Part shown: positions 3,934 to 59,834 of the stretch, piece by piece | Numbering within the stretch: the first letter of the stretch is position 1 | How the letters are laid out: each line of letters opens with the position of its first letter | Source: Gallionella sp. | GTDB taxonomy: Bacteria; Pseudomonadota; Gammaproteobacteria; Burkholderiales; Gallionellaceae | Length of the DNA stretch: 64,000 bases | Direction of reading: 5' to 3' | NCBI GenBank assembly: GCA_003153155.1 | Contig: PLWV01000005.1 | Span: 74,340 to 138,339 of the forward strand | Translations under genes and position numbers: made by a program | Notes under the pieces: generated by a model | The model's database searches: none | Told to the model about the DNA's origin: nothing | The model's input: only the letters and a program-made list of their open reading frames with translations

Positions 3934-5095
3934 TCTTCGTCAAAAACACCGTCACTTCCTCCCGGTCGTGATACAGCTGTTTCGCCATCATGCGGAAATT
4001 GATGCCTTCTTCATCCAGCCGTTTACGGATGCCGCCCAGCGCGCTGTCCAGAGCCGCGATGCGCTGCTTCATCGGCAGTTTCAAATTGAATATCGCGTGC
4101 TTGCACCAGCCTGCCGCGAACCATTCACCGATCAGCGTGGCGACCTTGGAGGGTTTTTCCACCATGTCGCAGACCAGCCAGTCCACCGCTTTGCGCGGCG
4201 CGTATTTGAAACCGTCTTGCTTGAGATGTTGCACCAGCGGATGATTTATTAGCGCGCCCTTCATCGGGCCGTTATCCACCGCTGTCACGCGGATGCCGCG
4301 CTTGACCAGTTGCCAGGTCCAGCCGCCGGGTGCCGCGCCCAGATCCACTGCCTGCATCCCTTGCCGCAACAAACGCGTCTGCTCGCTGCGATCCATGAAC
4401 ACCTCGATCGCCTCCGCAAGTTTCATCGTGGAGCGGCTCGGTGCCTCGGCAGGCATGTGCTGACGCACGATACCCATGATGGCCGCCGCGCTGTTGTGCG
4501 GATCGCTGCTGCCGATCAGTGCGGAGGATTTGTCAGGGAAGAAGATATGCAGACGCGGTAGTTTTTCCGTTCGGGCTGACCCTTCGACTGGCTCATAACC
4601 AGCGACTTGGCTATCGTCTTTTGATGGCCTAGTCGAATGGCTAATGGTTTTATCAGGGCGAACGGTATTTTGTGTGTCGCCCTGCAAGCGCCCCTGCTCG
4701 CGCAGCGCGGTCTCCAGCAACGGCTGAAAACGGCGCGTAAAGGTAGACAGCAGCTTGCCCTCGTTGGTGTCCGGCACTTCCAGCCACAGCGCACCAAATG
4801 TGCCGGGCATGGCAGCGATGGCATCAAGGATGGGTGTCAATCGGTCGCGCTCCGGCAGTGTTGGGATGCTGTGATGCAAGCGGATCAGTTGGCGTGTGAA
4901 GATCAGTTCACGGTAGCTTAACGACTGTTCGTTGAGTGCGACGATGACATAGCCGCTGTCGGCGACGATGTCGGGTTGCTCGGTACCGATGATGGGCTTT
5001 TGCTGCTTGGCTTGACGCAATGCTTCCTGCGCGCAATCCTGCTCAAAACCGGGACGGCAATACAACAGCCAGTGGGTGTGCTGAGTTTTCTTCAT
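3923..5095 (-). CDS. rlmM: 23S rRNA 2'-O-ribose methyltransferase RlmM, with repeat-derived internal segment
   Basis: SAM-dependent methylation of C2498 of 23S rRNA in E. coli. The 390-residue protein begins with a THUMP-like N-terminal part and carries the Rossmann SAM site VDLGAAPGGWTWQLVKRG near residues 245-260, followed by DWLVCDMVEKPSKV. Between about residues 145 and 180 it carries a stretch (SHSTRPSKDDSQVAGYEPVE) that is translated from a dispersed palindromic repeat (4594-4656), in frame and without a stop. Convergent with rluC and divergent from the HAD gene. Confidence 0.9.
   Translation of the reverse strand: MKKTQHTHWLLYCRPGFEQDCAQEALRQAKQQKPIIGTEQPDIVADSGYVIVALNEQSLSYRELIFTRQLIRLHHSIPTLPERDRLTPILDAIAAMPGTFGALWLEVPDTNEGKLLSTFTRRFQPLLETALREQGRLQGDTQNTVRPDKTISHSTRPSKDDSQVAGYEPVEGSARTEKLPRLHIFFPDKSSALIGSSDPHNSAAAIMGIVRQHMPAEAPSRSTMKLAEAIEVFMDRSEQTRLLRQGMQAVDLGAAPGGWTWQLVKRGIRVTAVDNGPMKGALINHPLVQHLKQDGFKYAPRKAVDWLVCDMVEKPSKVATLIGEWFAAGWCKHAIFNLKLPMKQRIAALDSALGGIRKRLDEEGINFRMMAKQLYHDREEVTVFLTKTKN
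4594..4656 (+). repeat. Family A palindromic repeat inside rlmM
   Basis: Contains ATAACCAGCGACTTGGCT ... GCCTAGTCGAATGGCTA followed by a TTTATCA tail. The two arms can form an imperfect stem. The same sequence recurs at 23508, 35671, 36481, 48839, 50674 and 59449. A partial copy of another repeat (CCTTCGACTGGCTC, 4581-4594) abuts it. Confidence 0.85.
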
Positions 5096-5170
5096 GCGAG
5101 TATTGTGGCATAGGTTGGGGGACTAGCCCGAAGGTGGTAATATCCGCGCCTCTTTTTTTGCTTTGGTGTA

Positions 5171-5827
5171 ATGAATAAACGCTACGATTTGATCGTGTTC
5201 GACTGGGACGGCACGGTGATGGATTCGACCGCGGTGATCGCGGGGTCGATACAGGCTGCATGTCGCGATCTGGGTTTGACCATTCCCGATGATGAAACCG
5301 CGCGTCATGTGATCGGCCTGGGTTTGGATCAGGCGTTGCGCTATGCCGTGCCTGATATGCCGGAGGCGATGCGCCCTGATTTGGTGGAGCGCTATCGCCA
5401 TTATTTTCTGGCGCAGGATGAGGCGATTCCTTTGTTTGAGGGCGCGCGAGAAACGATAGCGGAGCTGCGCGATGCGGGTTACCGGTTGGGTGTGGCGACC
5501 GGCAAGAGTCGCGCGGGATTGGACAGGGCAATGGAATCCACCGGCATGAAAAGCTATTTTCACGCGACCCGCACGGCAGATCAGACTTTTTCCAAACCGA
5601 ATCCGGCCATGCTGTTTGAACTGATGGATGAATTGGCGGTCAGTGCCGGGCGCACGTTGATGGTGGGCGATACCACGCACGATGTGCAGATGGCGCAGAA
5701 TGCCAAAGTGGATGTGGTGGCGATGGGTCACGGTGCCCATCCGCCGGAGCAGTTGCAGGAGTTGAACCCGCTTGCGCTGATGGGGGATTTTGCGGAACTA
5801 AGGGTGTGGTTGAAGGCAAATGCTTAA
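5171..5827 (+). CDS. HAD-superfamily phosphatase, phosphoglycolate-phosphatase-like
   Basis: Likely a small-molecule phosphatase. The 218-residue protein has HAD motif I DWDGTVMDS near the N-terminus (nucleophile Asp), motif II VATGKSR, a conserved Lys in KPNPAMLF and motif III MVGDTTHDVQMAQNA, plus a helical cap domain between motifs I and II. A gene of this type next to rluC and sppA is common in betaproteobacteria. The exact substrate cannot be read from sequence; it may be a Gph homologue. The stop lies at the edge of a MITE-like repeat. Confidence 0.85.
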   Translation: MNKRYDLIVFDWDGTVMDSTAVIAGSIQAACRDLGLTIPDDETARHVIGLGLDQALRYAVPDMPEAMRPDLVERYRHYFLAQDEAIPLFEGARETIAELRDAGYRLGVATGKSRAGLDRAMESTGMKSYFHATRTADQTFSKPNPAMLFELMDELAVSAGRTLMVGDTTHDVQMAQNAKVDVVAMGHGAHPPEQLQELNPLALMGDFAELRVWLKANA

Positions 5828-5970
5828 GGGAGCCGCTAAAAATCCACATTTCATTCCAACTGCGGCGTTGCGTAAAAAATTTCTTGCTAACATATCAACC
5901 ATATGCGGCGCGGCGAAATTTTTTCCGCGCCTTGCATTTGGGCGAACTCTGAATTTTTAGAGGCTCCCTT
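5825..5970. repeat. MITE-like element with terminal inverted repeats
   Basis: AAGGGAGCC at 5825-5833 is mirrored by GGCTCCCTT at 5962-5970, with inner AAAAAT/ATTTTT also mirrored. About 146 bp, no coding capacity, filling the HAD-sppA gap. The interior (GCGTTGCG ... ATATCAACCATATG ... CGCGCCTTGCA) resembles the element at 15280-15404. Confidence 0.7.
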
Positions 5971-5995
5971 AACGAATTTTAATAAAGGAATTGTG

Positions 5996-6943
5996 ATGTC
6001 AGATCAAAACAACTGGGAACGCGGTGTGCTGGAAAAGCTGGCGATGTCGGCCTTGCAGGAGCAACGCCGCGCGCGGCATTGGGGGATTTTCTTCAAGATG
6101 CTGACGCTGGGATTCATGTTCATTGTGCTGTTTATTTTTATGGGCTGGCTGGGCAAAAATGAGGTCGCGCTGGGCACAGGCAAACACACCGCGCTGGTGG
6201 ATATGCAGGGCGTAATTGCGGCGGACAGTATGGCGAGTGCCGATAATCTGATTCCCAGCCTGCAGGATGCATTCAAGGACAAGAACACGAAGGGCGTGAT
6301 TCTGCGCATCAACAGTCCCGGCGGCAGTCCGGTGCAGGCGGGGCAGATCAATGACGAGATTCGCCGTCTGCGCGTCCAGTATCCGAACATCCCGTTGTAT
6401 GTGGTGGTCGATGACATCTGCGCCTCCGGCGGCTATTACGTGGCGGCTGCGGCGGACAAAATTTTCGTGGACAAGGCCAGTTTGATTGGCTCCATCGGCG
6501 TGCTGATGGATGGCTTCGGTTTCACCGGAACCATGGCGAAGCTCGGCGTGGAACGCCGTCTGATAACGGCCGGAGCCAACAAGGGTTTCCTCGATCCATT
6601 TTCTCCGCTCAGCCCGGCACAGCAGGGCTACGCCAAACAGATGCTTGCGGAAATTCACCAGCAGTTCATCGATGTGGTGAAGCGCGGGCGCGGCAAGCGT
6701 CTCAAGGAAACGCCGGACACTTTCAGCGGTTTGGTGTGGAACGGACAGCGGGGCGTGGAGATGGGTCTGGCGGATGGTTTTGGTACCGTGGAATCAGTGG
6801 CGCGCGATGTCGTCAAGGCCGAGAACATCGTGGACTACACCGTGAAGGAAAACTTCGCTGATCGTCTGGCAAAACGCTTCGGCATAGGTGCGATGAGTGC
6901 GCTTGGTTTCTCCGCGCAGTCGAACGGGGTGAGCTTGCGCTGA
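5996..6943 (+). CDS. sppA: Signal peptide peptidase SppA, short S49 type
   Basis: Membrane-anchored serine protease that degrades leftover signal peptides. An uncleaved transmembrane anchor lies at about residues 35-55 (MLTLGFMFIVLFIFMGWLG). The catalytic Ser is about residue 144 in ICASGGYYVAAAADKI, and the general-base Lys is probably that of TAGANKGFLDPFSP. The ATG at 5996 was chosen because AAAGGA precedes it; a longer frame from 5903 would start inside a repeat element. Length (315) fits the single-domain class rather than the double-length E. coli enzyme. Confidence 0.92.
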   Translation: MSDQNNWERGVLEKLAMSALQEQRRARHWGIFFKMLTLGFMFIVLFIFMGWLGKNEVALGTGKHTALVDMQGVIAADSMASADNLIPSLQDAFKDKNTKGVILRINSPGGSPVQAGQINDEIRRLRVQYPNIPLYVVVDDICASGGYYVAAAADKIFVDKASLIGSIGVLMDGFGFTGTMAKLGVERRLITAGANKGFLDPFSPLSPAQQGYAKQMLAEIHQQFIDVVKRGRGKRLKETPDTFSGLVWNGQRGVEMGLADGFGTVESVARDVVKAENIVDYTVKENFADRLAKRFGIGAMSALGFSAQSNGVSLR

Positions 6944-7149
6944 TGGACGTGCGTCTGACCGTGCTCTAAAACGATGCGCTGCCTCGATTTCCCAAATAAC
7001 CGCCTTAAGGACGTTGGACAAGAAAATGAATCTGCGCCCCTCTCTTGCCCGCATGCGGCCACTTGCGCCTCTGGCACTTGTATTGCTCGGCGCGATTGTT
7101 GCTGTTGCCCTTAACTGCAGGCGCTGAATTACCCGTTTATTGTCCATCA
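6944..7149. other. Gene-free stretch between sppA and the HEARO-like RNA
   Basis: No convincing gene. A 33-codon frame at 7026-7127 encodes a hydrophobic peptide but has no well-spaced ribosome binding site. If the HEARO-like RNA were linked to an IscB nuclease, the nuclease would start here on the minus strand; no such coding sequence is present. Confidence 0.5.
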
Positions 7150-7322
7150 CAAGGTTAAAACCACCGGCTTTAGCCTTGCTGTTATAAGCAAGTTTGGAAG
7201 AACCCAATCTCGTTCCTCCTTGCTGGTTTTGCGCGTTTAGTCTTGCGCGGGTAGAGGACTTCAGTCCTCTGCGACCAGACTGCGCTAATCCACCTAACTT
7301 TAGTAGGTGGTAGTTTAGTTGA
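7150..7322 (-). ncRNA. HEARO-like / IscB-type omega RNA, apparently orphan
   Basis: Read on the minus strand the segment begins GTCAACTAAACTACC. It then has a 7-bp hairpin (7290-7310, CCACCTA/TAGGTGG), a perfect 8-bp hairpin AGAGGACT-GA-AGTCCTCT (7253-7270), then CGCGCAAGACTAAACGCG and CAAAACC (about 7225-7250), GGGTTCTTCCAAACTTGC and an AGCAAGGCTAAAGCCGGTGG tail. This order of hairpins and single-stranded blocks is what I recall for HEARO RNAs, the guide scaffolds of IscB nucleases, and the right end resembles IS200/IS605-type transposon ends. No IscB gene follows, so it is either a solo copy or a remnant. The recognition is by memory of the motif, not by a covariance search. Confidence 0.65.
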
Positions 7323-7633
7323 CCTGAAGAAAACTTCATGGATTGTTTTGGAAACGCTTTGGCGCGCAGGAGATAGGTGCTTTGCCGGGTTTCTTTGAAC
7401 AGCTGAAAAGAGTGGATTTGCGCAAAGGCAAGCGGTATGTTTTGCGCGGCATCACTTTTTATTTCGTGCTATGTTACAAAGTCCAAAGTCGATCATGTCA
7501 ATTACTAAAGAACTCGTGTTGAAGTCTATCAAAGTAAAATACTGCAAACTCCCGGTCTGTCTCCCGCATGCACCCGGCTATTCTCGCGAAAAATATTTTT
7601 CGGGGCAGGGCAGTTAACGCTTGCCGGACCGCC
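7323..7633. other. Upstream region of the dprE1-like operon
   Basis: No intact gene. A short frame at about 7378-7490 (LPGFFEQLKRVDLRKGKRYV) recalls the N-terminus of some DDE transposases but is too short to assign. The operon promoter should lie here; no confident -35/-10 pair was found. Confidence 0.35.
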
Positions 7634-12272: not shown

Positions 12273-12282
12273 AACAGCGGGT

Positions 12283-16533: not shown

Positions 16534-16580
16534 CGACGAAAACAATCGGAGACAGATCACTGTTTCGCAGTAAATAGAAA

Positions 16581-16649
16581 ATGAACCTCCTTCGCCTGTC
16601 CCTCAATTTGCTGCGCCGCGACTGGCGCGCCGGAGAATGGCGCGTGCTG
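16581..16649 (+). pseudogene. Duplicated 5' end of ybbP
   Basis: The first 23 codons encode the same 23 residues as the intact gene at 17332 (MNLLRLSLNLLRRDWRAGEW and three more). Six bases differ, all at synonymous positions. After codon 23 the sequence switches to a CCCTCTCACACTTGTGGGAG repeat and a REP, and the frame ends at 16733. It is a truncated copy left upstream of the RAYT. Confidence 0.85.
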
Positions 16650-16694: not shown

Positions 16695-17314
16695 GTAGGG
16701 TGGATAAGCAAAGCGCATCCACCGACTTTATGAAAATGGACGCGGCATGAGCAACTATCGCAGGGCATATCTCCCCGGCGGGATTTACTTCTTTACCGTC
16801 GTGACCTTCAATCGCGTTCCGGTTTTCACCGATGAAAAGCGCGTCGAAGCGCTGAGGCAGGCATTCCGCAAGGTGATGGCAACTCGCCCGTTCGAGATTG
16901 ACGCGATGGTCATCCTGCCCGAACACCTGCACTGTATCTGGCGTATGCCGGAAGGCGATGCCGATTATTCCTCGCGCTGGCGTGAAATCAAGAAGGCTGC
17001 TTCGCGCCAAATCAGCACCGCAACCAATGCACGCAACGAGCGCATGGTGTGGCAGCGAAGATTCTGGGAGCATGCAATTCGCGATGAGGAGGACTGGCGC
17101 AGGCATGTGGATTACATCCATTACAATCCGGTGAAGCATGGGTTGGCGAGTCGCCCCGGCGAATGGGCATGGTCGTCGTTCGGCAATGCCGTGAGCAAAG
17201 GGTGGTATGAGGAATCGTGGGGTGATTGCGAACCGGCAACCATTGTTGGGATGGATTGTGAGTGATGAATGGCCTATTCATAAATGGTGGATGCGCTGCG
17301 CTTATCCACCCTAC
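16695..17314 (+). mobile_element. RAYT cassette (REPtron) bounded by inverted REPs
   Basis: Bounded by two 29-base REPs in opposite orientation, 16695-16723 (starts GTAGGGTGGATAAGC) and 17286-17314 (ends GCTTATCCACCCTAC), which match as inverted repeats at 27 of 29 positions. The transposase gene fills the interior. This is the classic arrangement of a REP-associated tyrosine transposase with its cognate REPs. Confidence 0.85.
16747..17265 (+). CDS. REP-associated tyrosine transposase (Y1_Tnp family, RAYT)
   Basis: Single-stranded-DNA endonuclease of the HUH class, related to IS200/IS605 TnpA and thought to mobilise REP sequences. The 172-residue protein shows the N-terminal RRAYLPGGIYFFTVVTFNRV, the metal-binding HxH in ILPEHLHCIW (His 60 and 62), and the C-terminal HVDYIHYNPVKHG with the catalytic Tyr (about residue 123). 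All key motifs are intact. It interrupts the ybbA-ybbP pair. Confidence 0.92.
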   Translation: MSNYRRAYLPGGIYFFTVVTFNRVPVFTDEKRVEALRQAFRKVMATRPFEIDAMVILPEHLHCIWRMPEGDADYSSRWREIKKAASRQISTATNARNERMVWQRRFWEHAIRDEEDWRRHVDYIHYNPVKHGLASRPGEWAWSSFGNAVSKGWYEESWGDCEPATIVGMDCE

Positions 17315-17331
17315 ATTAATGTGAACAGAAA

Positions 17332-19941
17332 ATGAATCTTCTTCGCCTATCCCTCAATCTGCTCCGCCGCGACTGGCGCGCCGGGGAATGGCGCGTGCTG
17401 CTGATCGCGCTGGTGCTGGCAGTGGGTAGCATCGCCACCGTCGGCCTGTTCGCGGATCGCGTGCGGCTGGCGCTGCAACAGGAGGCCACCAGCTTGCTGG
17501 GCGCGGACTTGCGCATTTCTTCGGCGCGGCCATTGCCGCCTGCCTACCGTGAGGCTGCGCGGCAGCGTGGGCTGCGCGTGGTGGAGACGGCGAGTTTTCC
17601 GAGCATGGCGGCGGGCAAGCAACAGAGTGTGCTCGCTGAAATCTTGGCGGTGGAAGAAGGCTATCCGTTGCGCGGGAAGATTATTATTGATGATGGTAGC
17701 GGGAATCGCGCACCCTCTCCCCCAGCCCCTCTCCCACGAGTGGGAGAGGGGAGTAGTAGCTTCATTCCGGCGCGCGGCACGCTGTGGGCGGATGCGCGGC
17801 TGATGCAGCGGCTGGGTGTGCAACTGGGCGGCGAGGTGGGCATAGGCGCGCTGCATTTGCGCTTGGCCGCAGAGGTGGTGCGCGATGTGGATCAGTCGGT
17901 CGGCTTCGCCAGCTTTGCGCCGCGCGTGATATTGAATTCATCCGACTTGCCCGCCAGCGGGCTGGTGCAGGAAGGCAGCCGCATCCATTACCGGCTGCTT
18001 GTAGCGGGCGAGGCGAAGCAAGTGGACGACCTGCGCGGCTGGTTACAAGAAGCTGGGCGGCTGGGCGTGGGCGAGAAGCTGGAGGATGTGCGCGATGCGC
18101 GTCCTGAGATACGCACCGCGCTGGAACGCGCCGAGCATTTCCTCGGCTTGGCTGCGCTCACCGCCGTGGTGCTGGCGGGCGTCGCACTTGCGCTGGCCGC
18201 GCGGCATTTCATCTCGCGCCATCTGGATGCCTGCGCGATGATGCGTTGCCTTGGCGCGAACCAGGCGCAGGTGTTGCGCATCTTCCTCTACCAGTTCCTG
18301 CTGCTCGGCGCGTGCGCCGTGCTGCTGGGCGAGCTGCTCGGTTATATGGCACAGGCCGCGCTGGTGGAATCCATCGCTTCGATGCGCGAAGCCGGTTTGC
18401 CGCCGCCTGGCTGGACGCCGATGTGGCAGGCCGCTGCGAGCGGCATGGCGCTGTTGCTGGGCTTCGCCTTCCTGCCGCTGTGGCAATTGAAAAGCGTTTC
18501 GCCGTTGCGCGTGATCCGCCGTGAACTGGGCGCGCCGGAAGCGGGCACCGGGTTGTTGTATGCCTCCGGTGGGGCGGTGCTGTGCGGGCTGTTCCTGTGG
18601 CAGGCCGGTTCGCTCAAGCTGGGCCTGACCGTGCTGGGCGGTTTGCTGACGGGCCTGCTGGTGTTCGGTTTGCTGGCGTGGATTCTTGTGCGTTCGTTGG
18701 CAAAATTAGGGAGTCATGCGTTTTCCAATCTGGCGCGGCACGGCCGCAGCAACGCGGTGCAAATCGTCGCGCTTAGCCTGGGGGGCATGGCCTTGCTGTT
18801 GCTCACCTTCGTGCGCGCCGACCTGATGGACAGCTGGCGTTCGCGCCTGCCGCCGGATGCGCCCAATCGTTTCATCGTCAACATGCAGCCCGACCAGCGC
18901 GCGGCGGTGCTGGATTTTTTCGCGCAGCAAAAATTGCCGCCGCCGGAATTATTCCCGATGGTGCGCGGGCGCCTGGTGGCGATCAACCAGCGCCCGGTCA
19001 GCGGCGACGATTACCCCGACCCGCGCGCACGCGGGCTGGTGGAGCGCGAGTTCAATTTGTCCTGGTCGGCCAGCCTGCCGAAAAATAATGAGCTGGTGCA
19101 GGGGGAGTGGTGGCTGCGGAAGGGTGATGCCGCAGGCATCGGGCTGACTGAGCGGCCTGCGAGCTTGCGAGCAGATGCCGCCAGTGTCCCTTTGGGGCAC
19201 CCACCGGCGTCCCCCTTGCGGGGAAAAGATGCGCAAGGACAGTTGTCAGTGGAGGAAGGCATCGCCAAAACGCTGGGCATAAACATGGGCGACACGCTGA
19301 CCTACGACGTGGCGGGCAACCGGTTCAGCGCGCAGGTGGCGAACTTACGCAAGGTGCAGTGGGATTCCATGCAGGTGAATTTTTTCGTGGTCGCCGCACC
19401 CGGCATGCTGGAAGATTTTCCGGCCAGCTATATCACCAGCTTTCATCTGCCGCTGGACAAGGCGCAGTCGGCGAATGCGCTGATCAAGAAATTCCCCAAC
19501 CTGCTGCTGATCGACACCGAGGCGATGATAGAGCAGGTGCGCCATATCATGGACCAGATCTCGCAAACCATGAGCGCGGTGTTCATGTTCACGCTGCTGA
19601 GCGGGGTGGCCGTGCTGTATGCGGCGCTGCTCGCGACGCAGGACGAGCGTATCCATGAAGCCGCGATCCTGCGCACGCTGGGGGCGGACAGCCGTTATCT
19701 GCGGCGGCTGCACCTGAGCGAATTTGCCGTGCTGGGATTGTTGAGCGGCCTGTTCTCCGCCGCAGGCGCGGTGCTGCTGGGCTGGGCGCTGGCGCGCTTC
19801 GTTCTGGAAATCCCGTACCAGACTGGCATCGCGATCTGGCTGATCGGCGGGCTGGGCGGGATGTCGGTGGTGGTGCTGGCAGGGTGGCTTGCTACGCGGC
19901 AAGTGGTACAAATGCCGCCGTTGGCGATATTGCGCGAATAG
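17332..19941 (+). CDS. ybbP: FtsX-like ABC transporter permease, YbbP-like, with two repeat-derived insertions
   Basis: Large permease partner of YbbA. The 869 residues include an N-terminal membrane segment (VLLIALVLAVGSIATVGLFA), an extracytoplasmic domain, FtsX-type four-helix blocks (about residues 260-400 and 745-860) and further membrane segments around 410-490. Two stretches look foreign. About residues 124-143 (NRAPSPPAPLPRVGEG) are read from a CCCTCTCCC-type repeat. About residues 597-634 (RPASLRADAASVPLGHPPAS) are read from a second G/C-rich repeat just before the conserved QLSVEEGIAKTLGI. Both keep the frame. Confidence 0.88.
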   Translation: MNLLRLSLNLLRRDWRAGEWRVLLIALVLAVGSIATVGLFADRVRLALQQEATSLLGADLRISSARPLPPAYREAARQRGLRVVETASFPSMAAGKQQSVLAEILAVEEGYPLRGKIIIDDGSGNRAPSPPAPLPRVGEGSSSFIPARGTLWADARLMQRLGVQLGGEVGIGALHLRLAAEVVRDVDQSVGFASFAPRVILNSSDLPASGLVQEGSRIHYRLLVAGEAKQVDDLRGWLQEAGRLGVGEKLEDVRDARPEIRTALERAEHFLGLAALTAVVLAGVALALAARHFISRHLDACAMMRCLGANQAQVLRIFLYQFLLLGACAVLLGELLGYMAQAALVESIASMREAGLPPPGWTPMWQAAASGMALLLGFAFLPLWQLKSVSPLRVIRRELGAPEAGTGLLYASGGAVLCGLFLWQAGSLKLGLTVLGGLLTGLLVFGLLAWILVRSLAKLGSHAFSNLARHGRSNAVQIVALSLGGMALLLLTFVRADLMDSWRSRLPPDAPNRFIVNMQPDQRAAVLDFFAQQKLPPPELFPMVRGRLVAINQRPVSGDDYPDPRARGLVEREFNLSWSASLPKNNELVQGEWWLRKGDAAGIGLTERPASLRADAASVPLGHPPASPLRGKDAQGQLSVEEGIAKTLGINMGDTLTYDVAGNRFSAQVANLRKVQWDSMQVNFFVVAAPGMLEDFPASYITSFHLPLDKAQSANALIKKFPNLLLIDTEAMIEQVRHIMDQISQTMSAVFMFTLLSGVAVLYAALLATQDERIHEAAILRTLGADSRYLRRLHLSEFAVLGLLSGLFSAAGAVLLGWALARFVLEIPYQTGIAIWLIGGLGGMSVVVLAGWLATRQVVQMPPLAILRE
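17711..17751 (+). repeat. CCCTCTCCC-type repeat translated in ybbP
   Basis: Reads CACCCTCTCCCCCAGCC then CCCTCTCCCACGAGTGGGAG, a hairpin-forming repeat of the same type as at 13455 and 16662. In frame. Confidence 0.7.
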
Positions 19942-22617: not shown

Positions 22618-23577
22618 ATGTCGGAAATTACTGCAAGTATGGTCAAGGAACTGCGCGAGGCAACGGGTCTCGGCATGATGGAATGCAAAAAAGCGCTGGT
22701 AGAATCGAAGGGCAATTTGAAAGCGGCTGAAGAACAATTGCGCATCAAGAGCGGTGCCAAGGCCAGCAAAGCGGCCAGCCGTGTGACCGCTGAAGGTGTG
22801 GTCAGCGCGTTCATCGCCAAGGACGGCAAGACCGGTGCAGTGGTGGAAGTGAACTGCGAAACCGACTTCGTGGCCAAGAACGATGACTTTGTCGCATTTG
22901 CAAAAAATGCGGCTGAGACTGTGGCGAAGAACAACCCCGCCGACATCGCCGCGTTGTCAGGCATGGCGGTCGCCAACGGTTCCAGCAGCGTGGAAGAAAC
23001 CCGCAAAGCGCTGATCATGAAGCTAGGCGAGAACGTCAGCATCCGCCGTTTCGGGCGCTACGCGACCAGCACCGGCAAGCTGTCCAGCTATCTGCATGGC
23101 AGCAAGATCGGTGTATTGCTGGATTACACCGGCGGCGACGAAGCGCTGGGCCGCGACCTTTCCATGCATATCGCCGCCAGCAAGCCCAAGTCTATCGATG
23201 CTTCCGGGGTGAATCCGGTGGACATCGAGACCGAACGCCGTATCGCCATCGAGAAGGCGCGCGAAGCCGGCAAGCCCGATGCGATGCTGGAAAAGATCGC
23301 CGAAGGCACGGTGCAGAAATTCCTCAAGGAAGTGACCCTGCTGGGTCAAGTGTTCGTCAAAGCCGAAGACGGCAAGCAAACCGTCGAGCAATTGCTGAAG
23401 AGCAAGGGCGCATCGGTGACCGCCTTCCAGATGTTCGTGGTGGGCGAGGGTATCGAGAAGAAGGTCGAAGATTACGCGACTGAAGTGGCTGCCGCCGCAG
23501 CGGCTGCAATAACCAGCGACTCGGCTGGCGTCGTTAGCCAGCCTAGTCGAATGGCTAGTAGTTCCATCAAGGGTTAA
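22618..23577 (+). CDS. tsf: Elongation factor Ts with repeat-encoded C-terminal tail
   Basis: Guanine nucleotide exchange factor for EF-Tu. [20 protein letters not shown] and MECKKALVE are the conserved N-terminal domain, and TDFVAKN is the EF-Tu contact region. The conserved protein should end near [17 protein letters not shown]; instead about 22 more residues (ending [11 protein letters not shown]) are read from a family A repeat at 23508-23572, which also supplies the stop. GGAG precedes the ATG. Confidence 0.96.
23508..23572 (+). repeat. Family A repeat forming the end of tsf
   Basis: ATAACCAGCGACTCGGCTGG ... CAGCCTAGTCGAATGGCTAG ... TTCCATCAAGG. The tail's AAGGG (23569-23573) lies nine bases before the pyrH ATG and is the best candidate for the pyrH ribosome binding site. 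Confidence 0.85.
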
Positions 23578-35481: not shown

Positions 35482-35901
35482 TAATCTACTGCGCGGTTCG
35501 ATACACCCGCAAGGAGTAGGCCGGTGGGTTCCCGGCGGCAATGTCGCCACCCTTCAGCTCGCTGCGTTGCACCAAAGGTACGCAATCCACTATCCGGCAA
35601 GCCGGATGTGGAATTGTCAGCGCGGTACTCGCTCCTCGCCTACCCATTTGGTATGTCTCGTTCGCTGCGCTGACCAGCGACTTGGCTGGCGTTTTTTTGC
35701 CAGCTTAGTCGAATGGCCATGCAAAGCTCCGTGCGCACCTTCGACTTTGCTCAGGACAGGCTTGCTCTCGAAGCGGCGGCTGCGACACGTTACTGGCGAA
35801 GCCAGCCGATTGCGGGAGCAGTCGCCAGTTGCCCCTCCCGCACCGGATGCTTCGCAACACCGTGTCAAGGCAACCTCGTTACGATTCTTAGAGGTTCACG
35901 A
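35482..35901. repeat. Repeat-filled spacer between lpxB and rnhB
   Basis: 420 bases without a gene. It contains a family A copy (35671-35719, ACCAGCGACTTGGCTGG ... CCAGCTTAGTCGAATGG), a TTCGACTTTGCTCAGGACAGG unit near 35743, and a G/C-rich unit near 35520-35620 (GGTGGGTTCCCGGCGGCAAT). An open frame runs from here into rnhB but looks non-coding. Confidence 0.7.
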
Positions 35902-36501
35902 ATGACCAATGTTGTGCTTATTTGTGGTGTGGATGAGGCCGGGCGAGGTCCGCTGGCCGGCCCGGTCAGCGCGGCAGCGGTGATACTCGACCCGGACTAT
36001 CCCATCGCAGGTTTGGCCGATTCCAAAAAACTTTCCGAACGGCAACGCGACCAACTGGCAATCATTATTCGCGAACGCGCGCTTGCATGGGCAGTGGCCT
36101 ACGCTGATGTGGGCGAAATTGACCAACTCAACATCCTGCAAGCCACGCTGCTGGCGATGCGCCGCGCCGTGCTGGCCTTGCACATCCAACCGCAGCAAGT
36201 GCTGGTGGATGGCCTGTATTGCCCGCAAACTGGCATTCCCAGTCAGGCCATCGTGAAGGGCGACAGTAAGGTCGCCGCGATTTCCGCCGCTTCGATCCTG
36301 GCGAAGACCGCGCGGGATGCGCTGATGCTGGAATTGCACGAAACCTATCCGCACTACGGCTTCGCCGACCACAAAGGTTATCCCACCGCCGCGCACCTCG
36401 CCGCGTTGCGCGAACATGGAGTATCGATCGTGCATCGCAAAAGTTTCAGGCCGGTGCGTGAATTGCTATCCCCTCTCCCGCATAACCAGCGACTTGGCTG
36501 A
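35902..36501 (+). CDS. rnhB: Ribonuclease HII with repeat-encoded C-terminus
   Basis: Removes ribonucleotides from RNA/DNA hybrids. Catalytic [14 protein letters not shown] at the N-terminus, [34 protein letters not shown] and [13 protein letters not shown] are conserved. Start at 35902 with AGAGG upstream; the longer frame reads through repeats. The last ten residues ([10 protein letters not shown]) and the stop come from a CCCTCTCCC repeat joined to a family A repeat. 199 residues. Confidence 0.95.
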
Positions 36502-36626
36502 CGTATTTTGACAGCCTATAACCAGCCACTTGGTTGTCGTTCTTTGACAACCTAGTGGAATGGCTAAAAGTTTCATCAGTCGAATGGCTAGTAGTTATAT
36601 CAAGCGGGAGAGGGTTAGGGTGAGGG
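36469..36626 (+). repeat. Composite repeat: two family A units inside a CCCTCTCCC/GGGAGAGGG pair
   Basis: CCCCTCTCCCGC (36470-36481) opens and GCGGGAGAGGGTTAGGGTGA (36605-36624) closes the block. Between them are two family A palindromes (36482-36523 and 36518-36564) and extra TCGAATGGCTAGTAGTT tails. This looks like family A inserted into the loop of the other repeat. Confidence 0.8.
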
Positions 36627-48710: not shown

Positions 48711-48981
48711 CCTTATTTCATTTCGCATTAAAAACAGCATGTGTGTAGGAGCGGGCCATGCCCACGACCAAGAGACTCGCGAGCATGGCCCGCTCCTACA
48801 GGTGCCTGGCCAAAAGTTTTTCGGACGGGTGCCCGGCCATAACCAGCGACTTGGCGAGTATTGTTTGCTTGCCTAGTCGAATGGCTAGTTGTTCCACCAG
48901 TAGTCATATCAGTAGTTCCATCAAAAGTTTTTCAGACATCCGGCAAAATTGTTGTCGTTTTTAACGCAAATTGGAATTAGG
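48711..48981. repeat. Composite MITE-like element upstream of rpsF
   Basis: Terminal inverted repeats: left CCTTATTTCATTTCGCATTA, right end complement CCTAATTCCAATTTGCGTTA. Inside are a GTAGGAGCGGGCCATGCCC ... GGCCCGCTCCTAC palindrome (48746-48799), a family A palindrome (48839-48890) and a TTTTCAGACATCCGGCAAAA tail. A shorter second copy lies at 50574-50792. Confidence 0.85.
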
Positions 48982-50577: not shown

Positions 50578-50792
50578 TTCTATTTCTCATTAAAAACAGC
50601 GTTAATTGCAGGAGCGGGCCATGCCCGCGACCAAGGTGTTCGCGGGCAAGGCCCGCTCCTACGGGTGCCCGGCCATAACCAGCCACTTGGCTGTTGTTCT
50701 TTGACAGCCTAGTGGAATGGCTAGTGGTCCCATCAAAAGTTTTTCGGACATCCGGCAAAATTATTGTCGTTTTTAACGCATATAGGAATAAG
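50574..50792. repeat. Composite MITE-like element downstream of rplI (second copy)
   Basis: Ends CTAATTCTATTTCTCATTAA and, complemented, CTTATTCCTATATGCGTTAA. Contains GCAGGAGCGGGCCATGCCC ... GGCCCGCTCCTAC (50610-50662), family A (50674-50736) and the TTTTTCGGACATCCGGCAAA tail. Same order and orientation as 48711-48981, so the rpsF operon is framed by direct repeats. Confidence 0.85.
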
Positions 50793-54317: not shown

Positions 54318-54328
54318 GATAACATTAA

Positions 54329-54368: not shown

Positions 54369-54593
54369 AGGTAAGCGTGTCTATGCGCAAGCCTCTCATT
54401 CTTAAGCAGACGATTTCTTCGGCAACCATTGGTAGCCGTCTGTCCCTATATATATACCGCCTGTACCTTTTTTTGCGCCGCTTATCCCCAATTTTGAAAA
54501 ACAGCCAAGAGGGCTTGGGGCCAAGATCTATTTTTTGTTAGTGTCTCCTTCACGCCGTTGTTAAAGCGGGTTTTGCAGTGGAAGGACTAGATC

Positions 54594-54800
54594 ATGGTTA
54601 ACTTGGCCGAAGTGGATCGCAACTGGGAGCATCTCTATACGCAGTTTAAAAACCCAACAGGAGGTTCAGTAGTATGTATGGTGCACAAGGAAACCAAGAA
54701 ATTCGTCTACTTCGACGTCCAATTAAATCGGGTTCTTTCGAAACAAGAAGCCTTGATGTACAGAGTGGATGCTACGGGTAAGTATTCAGCTCATCCGTAA
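54594..54800 (+). CDS. Hypothetical 68-residue protein
   Basis: Not recognised. MVNLAEVDRNWEHLYTQF ... VVCMVHKETKKFVYFDV ... SKQEALMYRVDATGKYSAHP; soluble, mixed charge, no signal or membrane segment. GGAAGGA lies about ten bases upstream of the ATG. It is the first frame downstream of the sigma-54 promoter, 265 bases from the predicted start. Confidence 0.5.
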   Translation: MVNLAEVDRNWEHLYTQFKNPTGGSVVCMVHKETKKFVYFDVQLNRVLSKQEALMYRVDATGKYSAHP

Positions 54801-54872
54801 GTTGCCTGTAGACCCACTGTTTCGACGTCAGTCGAAATTGATCCTGGATGAATCAATGGGGGTCGAATCAAT

Positions 54873-54949
54873 GGGGTCAGCTTCGTCTAATTTTCCTAAG
54901 GTGTCTATGGAATGAAAGTGTCCAAGAAAATCAATCTGAAGCTGACCCC
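54873..54949. repeat. GGGGTCAGCTTC inverted-repeat element
   Basis: GGGGTCAGCTTC (54873-54884) and GAAGCTGACCCC (54938-54949) are perfect mirrors around 53 bases. GAATCAATGGGG occurs twice just before it. Same general type as family B. Confidence 0.8.
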
Positions 54950-55060
54950 TTTAGCCATCGCGCCGATCGTCGTCGGTGTTCCCAGCGGCAAAACTTAAGC
55001 CACCTCAAGAAAAGAACCGATAATCCTTTCCTGGAAGAAATAACAACAAGGAGTGTGGAA

Positions 55061-56173
55061 ATGCTGGCCTTCTTAAGCATGGCGTTCTTGATTTACGGCG
55101 TCATGCACATCTATGCGCTCAGCAAAGTGTGGCTGGCTTTCCCGCACTCACTGGGACTGAGTTTGGCGCTGGCGCTTTGGGGACTCGTCATGACCATCTC
55201 ACCGCTGATTATCTGGCAGTTGGCAAAGCAAAACTGGCACAGCGCAACCGCCGTTACATCCTGGGTGACTTATATTTGGATGGGACTCCTGTTCCTGTTT
55301 TGTTGCATCGCCCTGTTATTCGACTTCGGCCATGCACTGGCGACACTATTGGGTTTCAAGTGGCCTCTGCATGAATCAATGGCGTTCCGAACCGTTGGTC
55401 TGCTCGCTCTTGCTATGCTGGGCTATGGTTTTGTCGAGGCCAGGCAGATACAGGTTGAGGAAATAAAAATCACCACCCCCAAGCTATCTTCAACCATCGG
55501 TCGAGTGACCATCGCGCAGATTTCAGACCTGCACCTTGGCGTGATGCTGGGTGATGAATTTCTTGAGCGCGTCATCGCCAAGCTGCGCGAAATTCAACCA
55601 GACATCGTCGTGGCGACCGGAGATATTGTAGATGGGCAGGGGGACAACCTTAATGAACTGGCCCAGCACTTCCTTACTATCAAGCCTTCCAAAGGGGCAT
55701 ACGCCGTCATCGGCAATCACGAAGTCTATGCAGGGCTGGAAAATTCCCTCCGCTTTCTGCGCAGTGCGGGCTTTACCGTGCTGCGTGGCGAGTCGGCCGC
55801 AGCAGGAGGAATCATTCTGGTGGGAATCGATGATCCAAGCGCAGGGGCTCTTGGCCAAGAGGCAAGGGTGGATACCAAGAAGGCGCTCGCTTCAGTCACC
55901 AAGGGCGACTTCATCGTTCTGCTTAAGCACCAACCGGTGGTTGATAGGGAAACCCCGTTCGATTTGCAACTCTCCGGCCATATCCATGGCGGCCAGATAT
56001 TTCCGTTTGGTCTTTTAACGCGGCTTATCTATGGCGTGCGCACCGGCCTCACCCAACTTGCTGACGGGCGGTGGCTGTATGTCAGCCGTGGCGCTGGTAC
56101 CTGGGGGCCGCCGATACGCATTTTTGCTGCGCCCGAGATTACGCTGGTCACGATCGAGAGCGAGAATAAATAA
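55061..56173 (+). CDS. Membrane-anchored metallophosphoesterase
   Basis: 370 residues: four or five N-terminal membrane helices (about residues 1-130), then a calcineurin-like domain with QISDLHLGVML, VVATGDIVDGQ, VIGNHEVYAG, LLKHQPV and LSGHIHGGQIFPF, all metal-site motifs. Members are placed with YkuE-like phosphodiesterases; substrate unknown. Start at 55061 with AAGGAG upstream; the longer frame from 54848 reads through a repeat. Confidence 0.85.
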   Translation: MLAFLSMAFLIYGVMHIYALSKVWLAFPHSLGLSLALALWGLVMTISPLIIWQLAKQNWHSATAVTSWVTYIWMGLLFLFCCIALLFDFGHALATLLGFKWPLHESMAFRTVGLLALAMLGYGFVEARQIQVEEIKITTPKLSSTIGRVTIAQISDLHLGVMLGDEFLERVIAKLREIQPDIVVATGDIVDGQGDNLNELAQHFLTIKPSKGAYAVIGNHEVYAGLENSLRFLRSAGFTVLRGESAAAGGIILVGIDDPSAGALGQEARVDTKKALASVTKGDFIVLLKHQPVVDRETPFDLQLSGHIHGGQIFPFGLLTRLIYGVRTGLTQLADGRWLYVSRGAGTWGPPIRIFAAPEITLVTIESENK

Positions 56174-56198
56174 TCACATATGCTGCAAGTTTCTGAGT

Positions 56199-56261
56199 CA
56201 AAGAGGCCAGGGCAGATATATTTTGAAGCAGAAAAACAATTCGAACCGGCCCTATTTTAAT
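56199..56261. repeat. Family B repeat, second copy
   Basis: CAAAGAGGCCAGGGC, GATATATTTTGAAGCAGAAA and AACAATTCGAACCGGCCCTA. It ends one base before the ATG of the following gene, so it holds that gene's whole upstream region. Confidence 0.8.
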
Positions 56262-56262
56262 T

Positions 56263-57159
56263 ATGACAACAAAGCAGATCATCTACGTACCGGGAAAGAA
56301 CCCCAAGCCAGAGGCAGCACTGCATCGTGAATTGCTCTGGCGTACCCTTGTTGAAGGGGTGCGCCGCGCCGATAGGGCTGTGGCCGGTTCGCTTCAGGCC
56401 AACTACCCGCAATTCCATCTTGTTAGCTGGAACTACCTTTATTATCACGAGTATAAAGATATCACCAGCGACATTCCATGGATCGATGCCCTTATCAACA
56501 AACATGGCCCCACAGAGCAGGACATGCGGGATGCCCATTCCTGGAATATATGGCTGAGCCGCTTCGTGTTGACACTGGGAGATCACATTCCATTGCTGAT
56601 ACGATTGCTACCCGAAGAGTTGCGAAGTACCGCCACTGAAATCAACCGTTATTTTAATAATACCGATAATGCTGCCAGCAAAATTCGTGATTTATTAAAG
56701 CAGACACTACGCCCCATGCTTGAGAAACAAGATGATGTGTTATTGATTGGGCATAGTCTCGGTGCTGTCGTCGCCTACGACACATTGTGGGAACTTTCAC
56801 GTCAGGAAGGGCTAAAAGGGAAAATAGACTTTTTGACTCTCGGCAGCCCCATGGGTATGCATTACATACATCGGCGCTTGCTGGGTATGAGTGGCCAAGG
56901 GGAAAAAAGTTATCCCGACCTGATCCGCCACTGGATAAATTTGTCAGCAGAAGGCGACGTTACTGCGCTTAATCAAAATTTAAAAGAGAGTTTTCATCCA
57001 ATGCTGGAACAGGGTTTAGTCGAGTCTATTGAAGATCATTGCCATGGAATCTACAACTACTTTCGCAGCGATGAAGGCCTTAATTGCCATCGCTCCTATG
57101 GCTACATGGTTAGTCCCGCTGTGGGGAGCATCATTGCTGACTGGTGGAAGCATCATTGA
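56263..57159 (+). CDS. Alpha/beta-hydrolase-fold protein
   Basis: 298 residues. The nucleophile elbow is VLLIGHSLGAVVAYDTLWEL, a lipase-like GHSLG; FLTLGSPMGMHYIHRRLLGM follows and a His in EDHCHGIYNYFRSDEGL may complete the triad. Resembles cytoplasmic lipase-like proteins of unknown substrate. No Shine-Dalgarno sequence is visible because a repeat abuts the ATG. Confidence 0.7.
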   Translation: MTTKQIIYVPGKNPKPEAALHRELLWRTLVEGVRRADRAVAGSLQANYPQFHLVSWNYLYYHEYKDITSDIPWIDALINKHGPTEQDMRDAHSWNIWLSRFVLTLGDHIPLLIRLLPEELRSTATEINRYFNNTDNAASKIRDLLKQTLRPMLEKQDDVLLIGHSLGAVVAYDTLWELSRQEGLKGKIDFLTLGSPMGMHYIHRRLLGMSGQGEKSYPDLIRHWINLSAEGDVTALNQNLKESFHPMLEQGLVESIEDHCHGIYNYFRSDEGLNCHRSYGYMVSPAVGSIIADWWKHH

Positions 57160-57245
57160 TGCTGTGTGGATGAAGCGAAGAAGGCGAGAGAGCACGTCCT
57201 CAACGATCTTTGATCTCTGTGGTATCACACCCACGCAATTCGCAA

Positions 57246-57277
57246 AGCAAAAGGGGCCAGGTTGAGCTGATCCCTTT
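57246..57277. repeat. Family B-like partial repeat
   Basis: CAAAAGGGGCCAGGTTGAGC and TGATCCCTTTAATT, lying just upstream of the RAYT remnant. Confidence 0.6.
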
Positions 57278-57303
57278 AATTGATACCGAGATAGGAACGT
57301 GAC

Positions 57304-57354
57304 ATGGAACGGCACGTGGGCTATATTCATTTCAACCCCGTCAAACACGAATAG
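57304..57354 (+). pseudogene. RAYT transposase remnant
   Basis: Sixteen codons reading MERHVGYIHFNPVKHE then TAG. This matches HVDYIHYNPVKHG, the catalytic-Tyr motif of the intact RAYT at 16747. Only the motif survives; the N-terminal HUH region is absent. Confidence 0.7.
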
Positions 57355-57434
57355 GTTACTTCTGCGCCAAAGCATCGGTTAACGCCTTTTTTAAAAGTTA
57401 GTGAAAGTCAGCTGGTATATCCTGCCCCTAAAAC

Positions 57435-57944
57435 ATGATCCGTTATTTATACAAGCAGCCGAAAATACTTTTTGTGGGCATTAATCCCCATCTCGGATCG
57501 TTTGATCGAGGTGTGCCATTTTCCAACAACAAGTCGTTTTGGTACCTTCTCTCAGACGCGGGGATCATCCATGAAAAAAGGGACGAACTTCGAGACGATG
57601 AATCGTTAAAACGGATGTACACAAAGAAGTTTAATGCGGTGTACCGATTGGGTTTCGTGAACATTATCGATCGGCCCACGCGCGATGTTTCCGAGCTTGA
57701 GAAGGGCGAGGAGTTACCGGGGCGCAAAAAGATTTCACGCATAATCAGGGTTGAGATGCCGAAGGTAGCCTGTTTTATCGGAAAGATCACGTACGAGAAA
57801 TATACCGGATCAAAAGATTTTTCTTTTGGCTGGCAGAACAGCATCAATGGAGTGAAGATCTTCGTTATGCATTTTCCTTTGCGCGGAGAAGCCGTTGTCA
57901 GAATTCGCGAGTTAAGAAAAATTGCACAAGCCGCTCATGCTTGA
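57435..57944 (+). CDS. Mug-like uracil-DNA glycosylase-superfamily protein
   Basis: 169 residues. KILFVGINPHLGSFDRGVPF and NKSFWYLLSDAGII match the motif-1 region of mismatch-specific (G:U/G:T) glycosylases; FVMHFPLRGEAV fits the C-terminal motif. Probably base-excision repair. A/T-rich compared with core genes. Confidence 0.75.
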   Translation: MIRYLYKQPKILFVGINPHLGSFDRGVPFSNNKSFWYLLSDAGIIHEKRDELRDDESLKRMYTKKFNAVYRLGFVNIIDRPTRDVSELEKGEELPGRKKISRIIRVEMPKVACFIGKITYEKYTGSKDFSFGWQNSINGVKIFVMHFPLRGEAVVRIRELRKIAQAAHA

Positions 57945-57995
57945 TTCGTAGTTAATTTTTTTATCTAAAATAACCAAATGGAACAAAACAAAAAT

Positions 57996-58288
57996 ATGTC
58001 CACATTAAAACTCATATTCTCTCGCGACGAGGCCGGTACCCAGGCGCTATTTGAGGGAAGCAATCCGAGACGCTTCCGTGCGTTCAGACAGTTGCCGAAC
58101 GCAAACTGACGCAACTGGACGCCGCGGCCACGCTGGATTTTCTTCGCGCGCCACCGGGCAATCGCCTTGAAGCCTTGCGGGATGATCGCAAGGGGCAATG
58201 GAGCATCCGGGTGAACGACCAATGGCGTATTTGTTTCAAGTTCAAGAATGGCGACGTATTCGATGTCGAAATCGTCGATTACCATTGA
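57996..58288 (+). pseudogene. higB: HigB-type toxin, frameshifted
   Basis: Ribonuclease toxin of the RelE superfamily. The first frame reads LKLIFSRDEAGTQALFEG and SNPRRFRAFRQ and then hits a stop at 58107. A second frame from about 58085 continues VAERKLTQLDAAATLDFLRA, NRLEALRDDRKGQWSIRVND and VFDVEIVDYH. Restoring one G in CAG(G)TTGCC joins them into a normal HigB of about 97 residues. So the toxin is inactivated by a one-base deletion while the antitoxin is intact. Confidence 0.85.
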
Positions 58289-58298
58289 GGAGATCAAC

Positions 58299-58598
58299 AT
58301 GGTGAAGAATGGAATGCGCCCGGTACATCCGGGAGAAATTTTGCGCGAGGAATACATCGTGCCTATGGGCATGAGTGTCCATGCGTTGTCGCAGGCATTG
58401 CGCGTGCCCGCCACGCGGCTGCATGAGATCGTCAAGGAACGCCGCTCGATCACACCCGATACCGTATTGCGGTTGGCGCGTTACTTTGGTACGGATGCGC
58501 AGTCCTGGCTGAATCTGCAACTGAGCTACGATTTGAAAATCGCCGAAGCGGAACTGAAGGACAGAATCGAGCGCGAAGTCGAAGAGATGGCGGCGTAA
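58299..58598 (+). CDS. higA: HigA-family antitoxin
   Basis: 99-residue helix-turn-helix protein (MRPVHPGEILREEYIVPMGM, SVHALSQALRVPATRLHEIV, SITPDTVLRLARYFGTDAQS). It should bind and neutralise HigB and repress the pair. GGAG six bases before the ATG, eleven bases after the higB stop, the usual toxin-first order. Confidence 0.93.
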   Translation: MVKNGMRPVHPGEILREEYIVPMGMSVHALSQALRVPATRLHEIVKERRSITPDTVLRLARYFGTDAQSWLNLQLSYDLKIAEAELKDRIEREVEEMAA

Positions 58599-58709
58599 AG
58601 CGCGACGCAGCCTCTTTGATTATTGGAGGCCTGTCATCAAGCGTTTATCAGGCCGCATACGTTATAATAATCCCGTCTGAGTTGGCATGTTAGCCATACG
58701 AAAGGAAAT

Positions 58710-58934
58710 ATGATGAACAGAATCGACGTTCCCATTGCACAACTTTCATTCACCCAGAAGCTGGATTTAATGGAGATGCTTTGGGCCGACATGGTCGGCA
58801 ACGAAAAAAATCTGGAGTCACCGGCTTGGCACGAAGCTATTCTTAATGATCGCGAAGCTGCCTTGGATGCAGGCAAGGTAACCGTTTCAAACTGGGAAGA
58901 AGCCAAAGAAAGAATCAAGAAAAACGTTTCATGA
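58710..58934 (+). CDS. Addiction-module antitoxin (TIGR02574-like)
   Basis: 74 residues: IDVPIAQLSFTQKLDLMEML, WADMVGNEKNLESPAWHEAI, LNDREAALDAGKVTVSNWEE. This matches the short putative addiction-module components paired with ParE/RelE toxins. AAAGGA precedes the ATG; 58713 is an alternative start. Overlaps the toxin by ATGA. Confidence 0.8.
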   Translation: MMNRIDVPIAQLSFTQKLDLMEMLWADMVGNEKNLESPAWHEAILNDREAALDAGKVTVSNWEEAKERIKKNVS

Positions 58935-59224
58935 GGATAAAAATCCTCAGCGCCGCAGAGGGCGATCTCGAAGAGGGCCATCGATTCTACGAGTCACAAG
59001 CCGACGGCCTCGGCACCTACTTTTTGGATACGCTCTATTAAGACATCGACTCACTGGCCTATTTTGCGGGGATTCACCGCATAGTCTTCGGCCATCACCG
59101 GCTCCTCTCCAAACGATTTCCATTTGCTGTTTATTATCGTGTCGCGGACGATGAGGCCATCGTATTCGCCGTTCTCGATTGCCGCCGAAATCCAAGCTGG
59201 ATAAGGAAAAAACTATCCAAGTGA
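58931..59224 (+). pseudogene. ParE/RelE-type toxin with an in-frame stop
   Basis: Frame starts MRIKILSAAEGDLEEGHRFY and reaches TAA at 59039-59041 after 36 codons. The same frame then continues DIDSLAYFAGIHRIVFGHHR, RFPFAVYYRVADDEAIVFAV and LDCRRNPSWIRKKL, the normal rest of the toxin, to a stop at 59222. A single nonsense change would explain it. Confidence 0.82.
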
Positions 59225-59304
59225 TGGGCATGATACGAATATAGACCTCATGCACTTCGCCCATTCTGCATCAGCCTGACCAGCACCATGATCGAAGTGA
59301 TAGC

Positions 59305-59834
59305 AATCATCACATCTACATCGCAGCTTCCGATCTGTCGCGCTCGGAAATATTCTATGACAGGGTATTGCTGGACACACTGGGTTTTCGCAAGGGCAAA
59401 CGCCGATTTAATCCGTTCGTGGTGAGTTTTAAGTCCCCCGTTCGTGGTGATAACCAGCGACTTTGCTGCCGTACTTTGGCAGCTTAGTCGAATGGCTAGT
59501 AGTTCCATCAGCCTGTCGAACCATGGGCGGCGAGCCTCATATTCAATACTTCAATCTCCACTTCGGCTATGTGCTTCGCCCATCGGGCACCAAGGCCATA
59601 CATGATGCCCTCTCACCCGGATTGCACCACCTCTGCCTTCGTGTCGATACACCGGCAGACGTCGCTGCCGTAGCCGCTCAGCTTCGCGGGGCTGGCATAG
59701 CAGCAACCGATGCAAAACTCTATCCCATATACGCCCCGGACTATTGGGCAACCTACTTCACCGGCCCCGATGGCATCCGCCTTGAAGTCACCAACTACAG
59801 GCCAGAGCATCGCGAGCGTCATGACAATTGGTAA
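59305..59834 (+). pseudogene. VOC/glyoxalase-family gene disrupted by repeat insertion
   Basis: The first part HHIYIAASDLSRSEIFYDRV and LGFRKGKRRFNPF is the normal N-terminal half. A block with two GTTCGTGGTGA units and a family A repeat (59417-59513) follows. The C-terminal half then resumes in another frame: GEPHIQYFNLHFGYVLRPSG, GLHHLCLRVDTPADVAAVAA and YFTGPDGIRLEVTNYRPEH. The insertion brings a stop and a frame change. Confidence 0.82.
59449..59510 (+). repeat. Family A repeat inside the VOC gene
   Basis: ATAACCAGCGACTTTGCTGC ... GGCAGCTTAGTCGAATGGCT, then AGTAGTTCCATCA. Preceded by GTTCGTGGTGA twice and followed by CAGCCTGTCGAACC, parts of the TTCGACAGGCT-type repeat. Confidence 0.85.

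Follow-up and report, generated by a model that had tools for sequence, protein, structure and literature searches.

The stretch of DNA analysed here, called the window below, comprises 64,000 nucleotides (nt) of a Gallionella sp. genome of 2.75 Mb in 30 contigs (contig C19, positions 74340–138339). As an earlier note on this DNA had described, it contains a short imperfect palindrome at seven loci in eight units, all of them on the plus strand. The element is 60 nt long and consists of TAACCA, a hairpin, TGGCTA and a 12-nt tail, GTNGTNNNAYCA. The evidence presented here argues that it is probably a non-autonomous mobile element.

Copies of the element in the window and in other genomes

Seven of the eight window units begin with TAACC and carry variants of the tail GTNGTNNNAYCA (type 1), the one that the earlier note had given for the family as a whole, whereas the remaining unit, at 35671, begins with TGACC and ends with a different tail, TGCAAAGC (type 2). 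Six window copies were used to build a covariance model, which matches seven units at E 7.8e-28 to 7.8e-13; the one that it misses, the interrupted outer copy at 36483, is visible by eye and in a separate analysis. Rfam gave no match in the window above the gathering score.

Inside rlmM (minus-strand open reading frame (ORF) 3923–5095), a full type-1 element at 4596–4655 lies within the repeat CCCTTCGACTGGCTCA^GGGCGAACGG (a caret marks the point of insertion) and lengthens the gene in frame by about 20 codons, which fall between its RLMM_N and FtsJ domains. Another full type-1 element (23510–23569) is located at the 3' end of tsf (22618–23577). The divergent variant at 35671–35727 lies between lpxB and rnhB and overlaps the first codons of rnhB in the longest ORF reading of that gene. 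At the end of rnhB, the left part of a type-1 element (36483–36518) is found in the palindromic repeat CCCGCA^AGCGGG and provides the RNase HII ORF with its final residues and stop codon; it is split from its right part and tail GTAGTTATATCA (36579–36602) by a nested type-1 element at 36519–36578, with the junction CCTA^GTCG. The earlier note had counted two units at this place, and two are present, but one sits within the other and they are not side by side. Full type-1 elements also occur at 48840–48899, between the gene for a PEP-utilising enzyme and rpsF, where the repeat GGGTGCCCGGCCA^AAAGTTTTTC is interrupted, at 50676–50735, between rplI and dnaB, in a repeat of the same kind, and at 59451–59510, where the element overlaps the TTG start of a putative ORF of 123 amino acids (aa; 59463–59834). 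Directly after the 48840 element, two extra 12-nt tails, GTAGTCATATCA and GTAGTTCCATCA, occupy 48900–48923 and would fit traces of earlier insertions at one junction whose bodies were then lost. A small hairpin of approximately the sequence CGGGTGCCCGGCCAAAAGTTCTTCGGC (window 48826–48839 with 48924–48935; L008:1404–1484) occurs at many places, also in loops of the 60-nt element, and the 60-nt element enters hairpins of this type at GGCCA^AAAG; the two families nest mutually.

The own genome holds at least 165 matches at E up to 0.1, with 150 of 776 candidates scored. At E up to 0.01, the model gave 206 matches, a few of them antisense shadows, in 100 sources made up of the window and 99 own-genome loci. 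Motif parsing of these loci resolved 134 clusters, with a single element in 83 and several in 51. As 62 clusters lie on the plus and 72 on the minus strand, the uniform orientation pointed out by the earlier note is local to the window.

Among the Gallionellaceae, which are for the most part iron-oxidising bacteria, the element was matched in 51 of 60 genomes and 14 of 15 genera (E up to 0.001). Over the order, 16 of 200 sampled genomes gave a match under stricter filters (E up to 1e-6), six of them Gallionellaceae, own genome included. A pattern scan of named genomes found at least 114 stretches, and the 80 examined by title come mostly from Gallionella, Sideroxydans, Ferrigenium, Gallionellaceae, Gallionellales and Nitrosomonadales, with a few from Sulfuricella, Thiobacillus, Betaproteobacteria and Proteobacteria. 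The CCA/TGG outer stem is replaced by AAGC/GCTT in several copies from a further family of the order; their tail is of the same kind. An intact copy was found on one IMG/VR contig (IMGVR_UViG_3300037222_000062; L295:5596–5656, minus strand), and a phage or prophage may be a carrier of the element; the same contig contains a 741-aa ORF that may encode a phage tape measure protein. Plasmid and phage records gave no match to the nested window pair used as query. In genome G250, which is assigned to a different family of the order, copies of the element form part of a longer repeated unit with flanks that are mostly alike, approximately GCTCCCCTCGCCCGCATGCGGGAGAGGGGCTGGG ... GTGAGGGAACCGACATGG (L423–L428, L432). 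The distant genome G314 has type-2 copies as 49-nt direct repeats (L439–L441), whose context resembles window 35640–35740 around the 35671 copy (ATGTCTCG...TGACCAGC...ATGCAA); both are perhaps one old composite repeat. A literature search for the element, including Gallionellaceae in combination with repetitive, palindromic sequences, turned up no description.

Insertion sites, nesting and tail classes

The tsf region is matched in all 76 genomes of the genus that were searched, the own one included, and the 29 best other loci were aligned. The DNA alignment of the relatives breaks at the element, which is absent from all 29 congeneric loci (a few other extra bases occur there in L365 and L366). 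The junctions read GCA-A-TAACC...CATCA-AGGG in the window and GCN-AAGG in most relatives; the change amounts to 60 nt with one shared A, which is the most that any target duplication could comprise. The encoded EF-Ts has gained 20 residues with its reading frame kept. In the closest relative, genome G072, the region is 93–95% identical and lacks the element, and the tsf insertion is therefore younger than the split between the two genomes. The window copy is missing in G072 at all four comparable sites: besides tsf, the 36483 site has a palindromic repeat that lacks the element, in a flank that has itself diverged, the 35671 site shows a different arrangement with a type-1 insertion of its own, and the 50676 site is occupied by other sequence. 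The 48840 and 59451 sites were not aligned or fell outside the query. Of 6328 pairwise comparisons between full-length own-genome copies, 103 showed a difference of at most 2 nt, several of them between copies at different sites. No autonomous long version, sought as unpaired matching halves 300–4000 nt apart, was found in 567 loci (2.04 Mb including overlaps), a scan that comprised 543 matched pairs and left 86 left and 63 right halves unmatched.

Insertion is mostly at A^R. In the 106 own-genome clusters whose type-1 end is complete, position −1 is A in 93 and position +1 is G or A in 105; of 304 distinct sites over all loci, 286 have A before the element. Many targets are repeats in their own right: a rough sort by motif, covering 130 of the 134 clusters, assigned 13 targets to GGGTGCCCGGNCA^AAAG, 19 to GA-rich palindromes, 13 to CTTCGACAGGCTCA^GGGCG, 7 to CGCAACGCAGCA^GTTGGG and 5 to another repeat, with 73 unclassified. 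Open stretches of at least 150 codons span 57% of the 134 sites (flanks joined) versus 89% of 540 random positions, a crude measure of gene avoidance that uses open stretches without gene calls.

Apparent tandem arrays of the element are insertions within insertions. Tail class and insertion site were counted for the innermost elements of the own genome, with 43 further elements that have no recognised tail set aside. The 122 type-1 elements are found at the body/tail junction of another copy (27), at the T.T mismatch of its 3' arm (14), at the G.A mismatch of its 5' arm (7) or in other DNA (74), and never in a hairpin loop. By contrast, 16 of the 18 type-2 elements are inserted in the loop of a sister copy (CGT^NNTTT), the other two standing directly after another type-2 tail. 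At the loci of other genomes, 160 of 169 type-1 elements lie in other DNA, two at the junction, six in the 3' arm and one in a loop-like site, which met the motif rule but by eye is not the family loop; both type-2 elements there are in loops, and 23 elements have no tail. These counts show that tail class is associated with insertion site; some nested copies may descend from shared events.

Fold of the hairpin and covariation

Folded as single-stranded DNA, six single copies and the nested pair all surpass dinucleotide shuffles (z −2.6 to −4.2). Covariation was measured on 134 distinct sequences among the 150 best own-genome matches (of 206), in an alignment fitted to the model. In this model-fitted set, 97.4% of the cells of the named stem are paired, 291 cells have a double change (shuffles: 87.6 ± 8.5; slid controls: 40 or fewer), and the covariation score is 0.412 (shuffles: 0.167; slid controls: 0.098 or less). 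Because that alignment was fitted to the model, a structure-blind scan was run on 241 distinct sequences among 336 gapless 48-nt bodies from all loci, other body lengths being dropped, using mutual information with average product correction. The top seven of 1128 column pairs fall on the stem (i+j = 48), one of them being the mismatch 7/41, which is G.A in 182 sequences and A.G in 47; these numbers count related sequences and not events, and the motif used for collection fixes both ends. The compensatory changes between the arms seen by the earlier note are thus real and more extensive than was apparent by eye.

G.T pairs greatly exceed A.C pairs in the stem (360 versus 20, or 156 versus 20 without pair 21–27, with pair 14–34 contributing 60 of the 156), and the written strand is therefore the strand that folds. 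The compensation is best read as a structure that is needed for mobility and differs between subfamilies, and not as a hairpin conserved in place, since the window copies are missing from the compared sites of G072. From the selected hairpin of the earlier note there remains a constrained, strand-specific fold, without its being kept in position. The same note had named absent covariation and random orientation across the genome as observations that would speak against selection; genome-wide, covariation proved strong and orientation balanced.

Mobilisation and relation to known systems

One explanation for the element is that it belongs to the repetitive extragenic palindromic (REP) type and is moved by a REP-associated tyrosine transposase (RAYT) or another Y1 (IS200/IS605-like) transposase, present or recently lost. 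The own genome has three Y1 genes and is the sole genome for which a recent insertion was demonstrated. REP and IS200 systems likewise lack target duplication and have a bulged hairpin, and the GTNG at the start of the tail and the CA at the end of type-1 elements recall the proposal that T2 and G4 of GTAG select CA cleavage (PMC8266576). However, the GTNG of type-1 copies stands 3' of the hairpin and not 5'. No copy of the element was found within about 1.5 kb on either side of the three own-genome Y1 genes, and one of 30 Y1 loci of relatives contains one; L082 is the only one of all 33 fetched Y1 loci to hold any. Furthermore, a Y1 match is absent from 13 of the 51 element-bearing genomes, including the single-contig genomes G044 (33 element matches) and G057 (12), and present in all nine element-free genomes (Spearman −0.21, p = 0.11, across 60 genomes). 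Y1 presence therefore does not predict the element, and this pattern lends no support to the cognate RAYT that the earlier note had suggested looking for. A Y1 gene that was lost or only transiently present may still have acted, recent activity being demonstrated only in the Y1-bearing own genome, but mobilisation by a Y1 enzyme is on balance unlikely.

Matches to a reverse transcriptase (RVT_1, PF00078), an IS110-type transposase (PF02371, one domain only) and an IS91-type or Y2 transposase (PF04986) were sought in 21 genomes, 12 element-bearing and nine element-free, picked by hand and not at random. RNA-mediated retroposition, a route put forward as a partial explanation of yeast mitochondrial GC clusters (PMC4478555), would agree with a folded written strand rich in G.T pairs; the RVT_1 match, however, is absent from the own genome and from nine of the 11 other element-bearing genomes tested (two of 12 in all have it, against seven of the nine element-free genomes, one of these below the curated cut-off), which makes this route very improbable. 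The IS110-type domain has no match in the own genome and occurs in three of the 12 bearers and seven of the nine element-free genomes; for the IS91 type the counts are three and four, with two pieces on contig C12 of the own genome. None of the three follows the distribution of the element in the chosen genomes, and G044 and G057 lack a match to any of them as well as to Y1. A static regulatory or structural hairpin held in place by selection would account for the strong covariation, but it is contradicted by the empty site at tsf, in a relative about 95% identical there that lacks the window copy at each of four compared sites; copies also lie in coding sequence and inside one another, and this explanation can practically be dismissed.

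Some further observations concern these genes. The Y1 gene of the window (16747–17265) lies between inverted GTAGGGTGGAT... repeats, the usual REP/RAYT arrangement of another family. Two copies of a gene start, 90% identical to each other (16570–16649 and 17321–17400), flank this Y1/RAYT unit with its inverted GTAGGGTGGATAAGC repeats (16695–17314), an arrangement that looks like a duplication, around the unit, of the beginning of the gene at 17332. Upstream of a 243-aa Y1 gene of the own genome (L009:1468–2199), the sequence L009:1393–1452 starts with TAACCAGCGCTTG and ends with TTCATCA, i.e. it has element-like ends without arms, and may be either a chance likeness or a decayed relative. The element-free genomes (G007, G008, G009, G017, G026, G039, G047, G051 and G058) often have several Y1, reverse transcriptase and IS110-type matches and the tested bearers few, possibly a lineage effect, six of the nine belonging to one genus.

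GTAG-type REPs and REPINs with their RAYT (TnpA_REP) resemble the element in being short, often bulged hairpins of high copy number, some of them in-frame in genes (PMC8266576, PMC3733652). Unlike them, the element has TAACC and not GTAG at its 5' end, carries a 12-nt 3' tail, nests in sister copies, does not accompany the own-genome Y1 genes and is present in genomes without a Y1 match. An unpaired GTAG 5' of the hairpin was found in none of the eight window units (the genome-wide motif searches required TAACCA and bear no information on this point). The CGTC REPs (dRS3 and some RPEs) are also hairpins with short CCA-like 3' tails, no dedicated transposase and known in-frame insertions (PMC3733652); the element differs in its longer tail and the lack of a CGTC tag, no unpaired CGTC being found at either of its ends (TAACC and AYCA or AAGC). 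By eye, some of its targets look like CGTC-type REPs, entered at GTCATTCCGGCGCA^GGCCGGAATCCAG. Since its tags differ, the element falls outside both REP classes, and since linkage is missing, the connection with RAYT fails. Yeast mitochondrial GC clusters, compared by description and not by sequence, are likewise small, mobile and able to form hairpins, and they merge and shuffle by an unsettled mechanism; unlike the element, they reside in an organelle and have putative target duplications (PMC4478555). The features of a classical miniature inverted-repeat transposable element moved by a DDE transposase were not seen, as TAACC and AYCA are not inverted repeats and tsf shows no duplication beyond the single A. 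IS200/IS605 transposons insert without target duplication, as the element did at tsf with at most one shared A. In IS608 and ISDra2 of this group, a folded single strand is likewise involved; few element bases are reported to set the target (PMC5934647). The element is distinguished from them by having no gene, a single hairpin, a target of 1–2 nt, and a 3' tail, not a 5' guide, that goes with the site.

The most plausible reading is that of a non-autonomous 60-nt mobile element which moves as a folded single strand, and we consider it probable. From 5' to 3', the element reads TAA, a bulged hairpin and a tail. In the hairpin, a CCA/TGG outer stem is followed by the covarying G.A/A.G mismatch, then by a 5-bp stem and a T.T mismatch, and last by a variable inner stem with a CGTNNTTTG-like loop. 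A putative strand transferase acting in trans would recognise the folded written strand and join A^ to TAACC at one end and AYCA^ to R at the other, without target duplication. Other copies and other repeats are common targets, and copies therefore nest. Elements with GTNGTNNNAYCA tails enter A^R sites (the body/tail junction, the two bulged stem positions and other DNA), and those with TGCAAAGC tails the hairpin loop of a sister copy. Judged by its anatomy (no duplication, a strand-specific bulged hairpin and short fixed ends), the system may work like IS200/IS605-type single-strand transposition, presumably through a single-stranded intermediate and an HUH-like mechanism.

Several results weigh against this model. 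No mobilising gene was found among the Y1, RVT_1, IS110 and IS91 types sought, integron integrases, XerCD, relaxases, Rep proteins and other HUH families not having been searched. The number of stem pairs with any double change is weak evidence, at 10 against 8.2, with 41 of 500 shuffles reaching 10. IS608-like transposition of single-stranded DNA is expected to leave a replication-strand bias, and in three complete genomes 46 of 69 copies lie on one sense (p = 0.008), opposite to the expected one; the own genome gave 59 of 134, with contig skews derived from short samples, and the pooled count is 105 of 203 (p = 0.67). Targets differ weakly from control sites in structure (shuffle-z p = 0.33; raw minimum free energy p = 0.015). 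A guide by base pairing between tail position 3 and target position −2 was also tried and failed, 62 of 286 sites being complementary where 68.1 were expected.

A bolder proposal is that the element represents a distinct class of mobile hairpins, in which folded single strands are handled by an enzyme that is neither RAYT nor a known transposase and the 3' tail programmes the site; this we regard as possible and rather doubtful. If it were true, one tail class would parasitise only the hairpin loops of sister copies. The link between tail and site suggests that a very small sequence determinant governs the choice of target. A gap acknowledged in the literature (PMC3733652) concerns REP-like hairpins that have no dedicated transposase, and the element is an abundant system that bears on it. 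Its insertions are clean, one site is empty in a close relative, there are several subfamilies, and its two tail classes differ in their targets; the question of what moves such hairpins thereby becomes directly testable.

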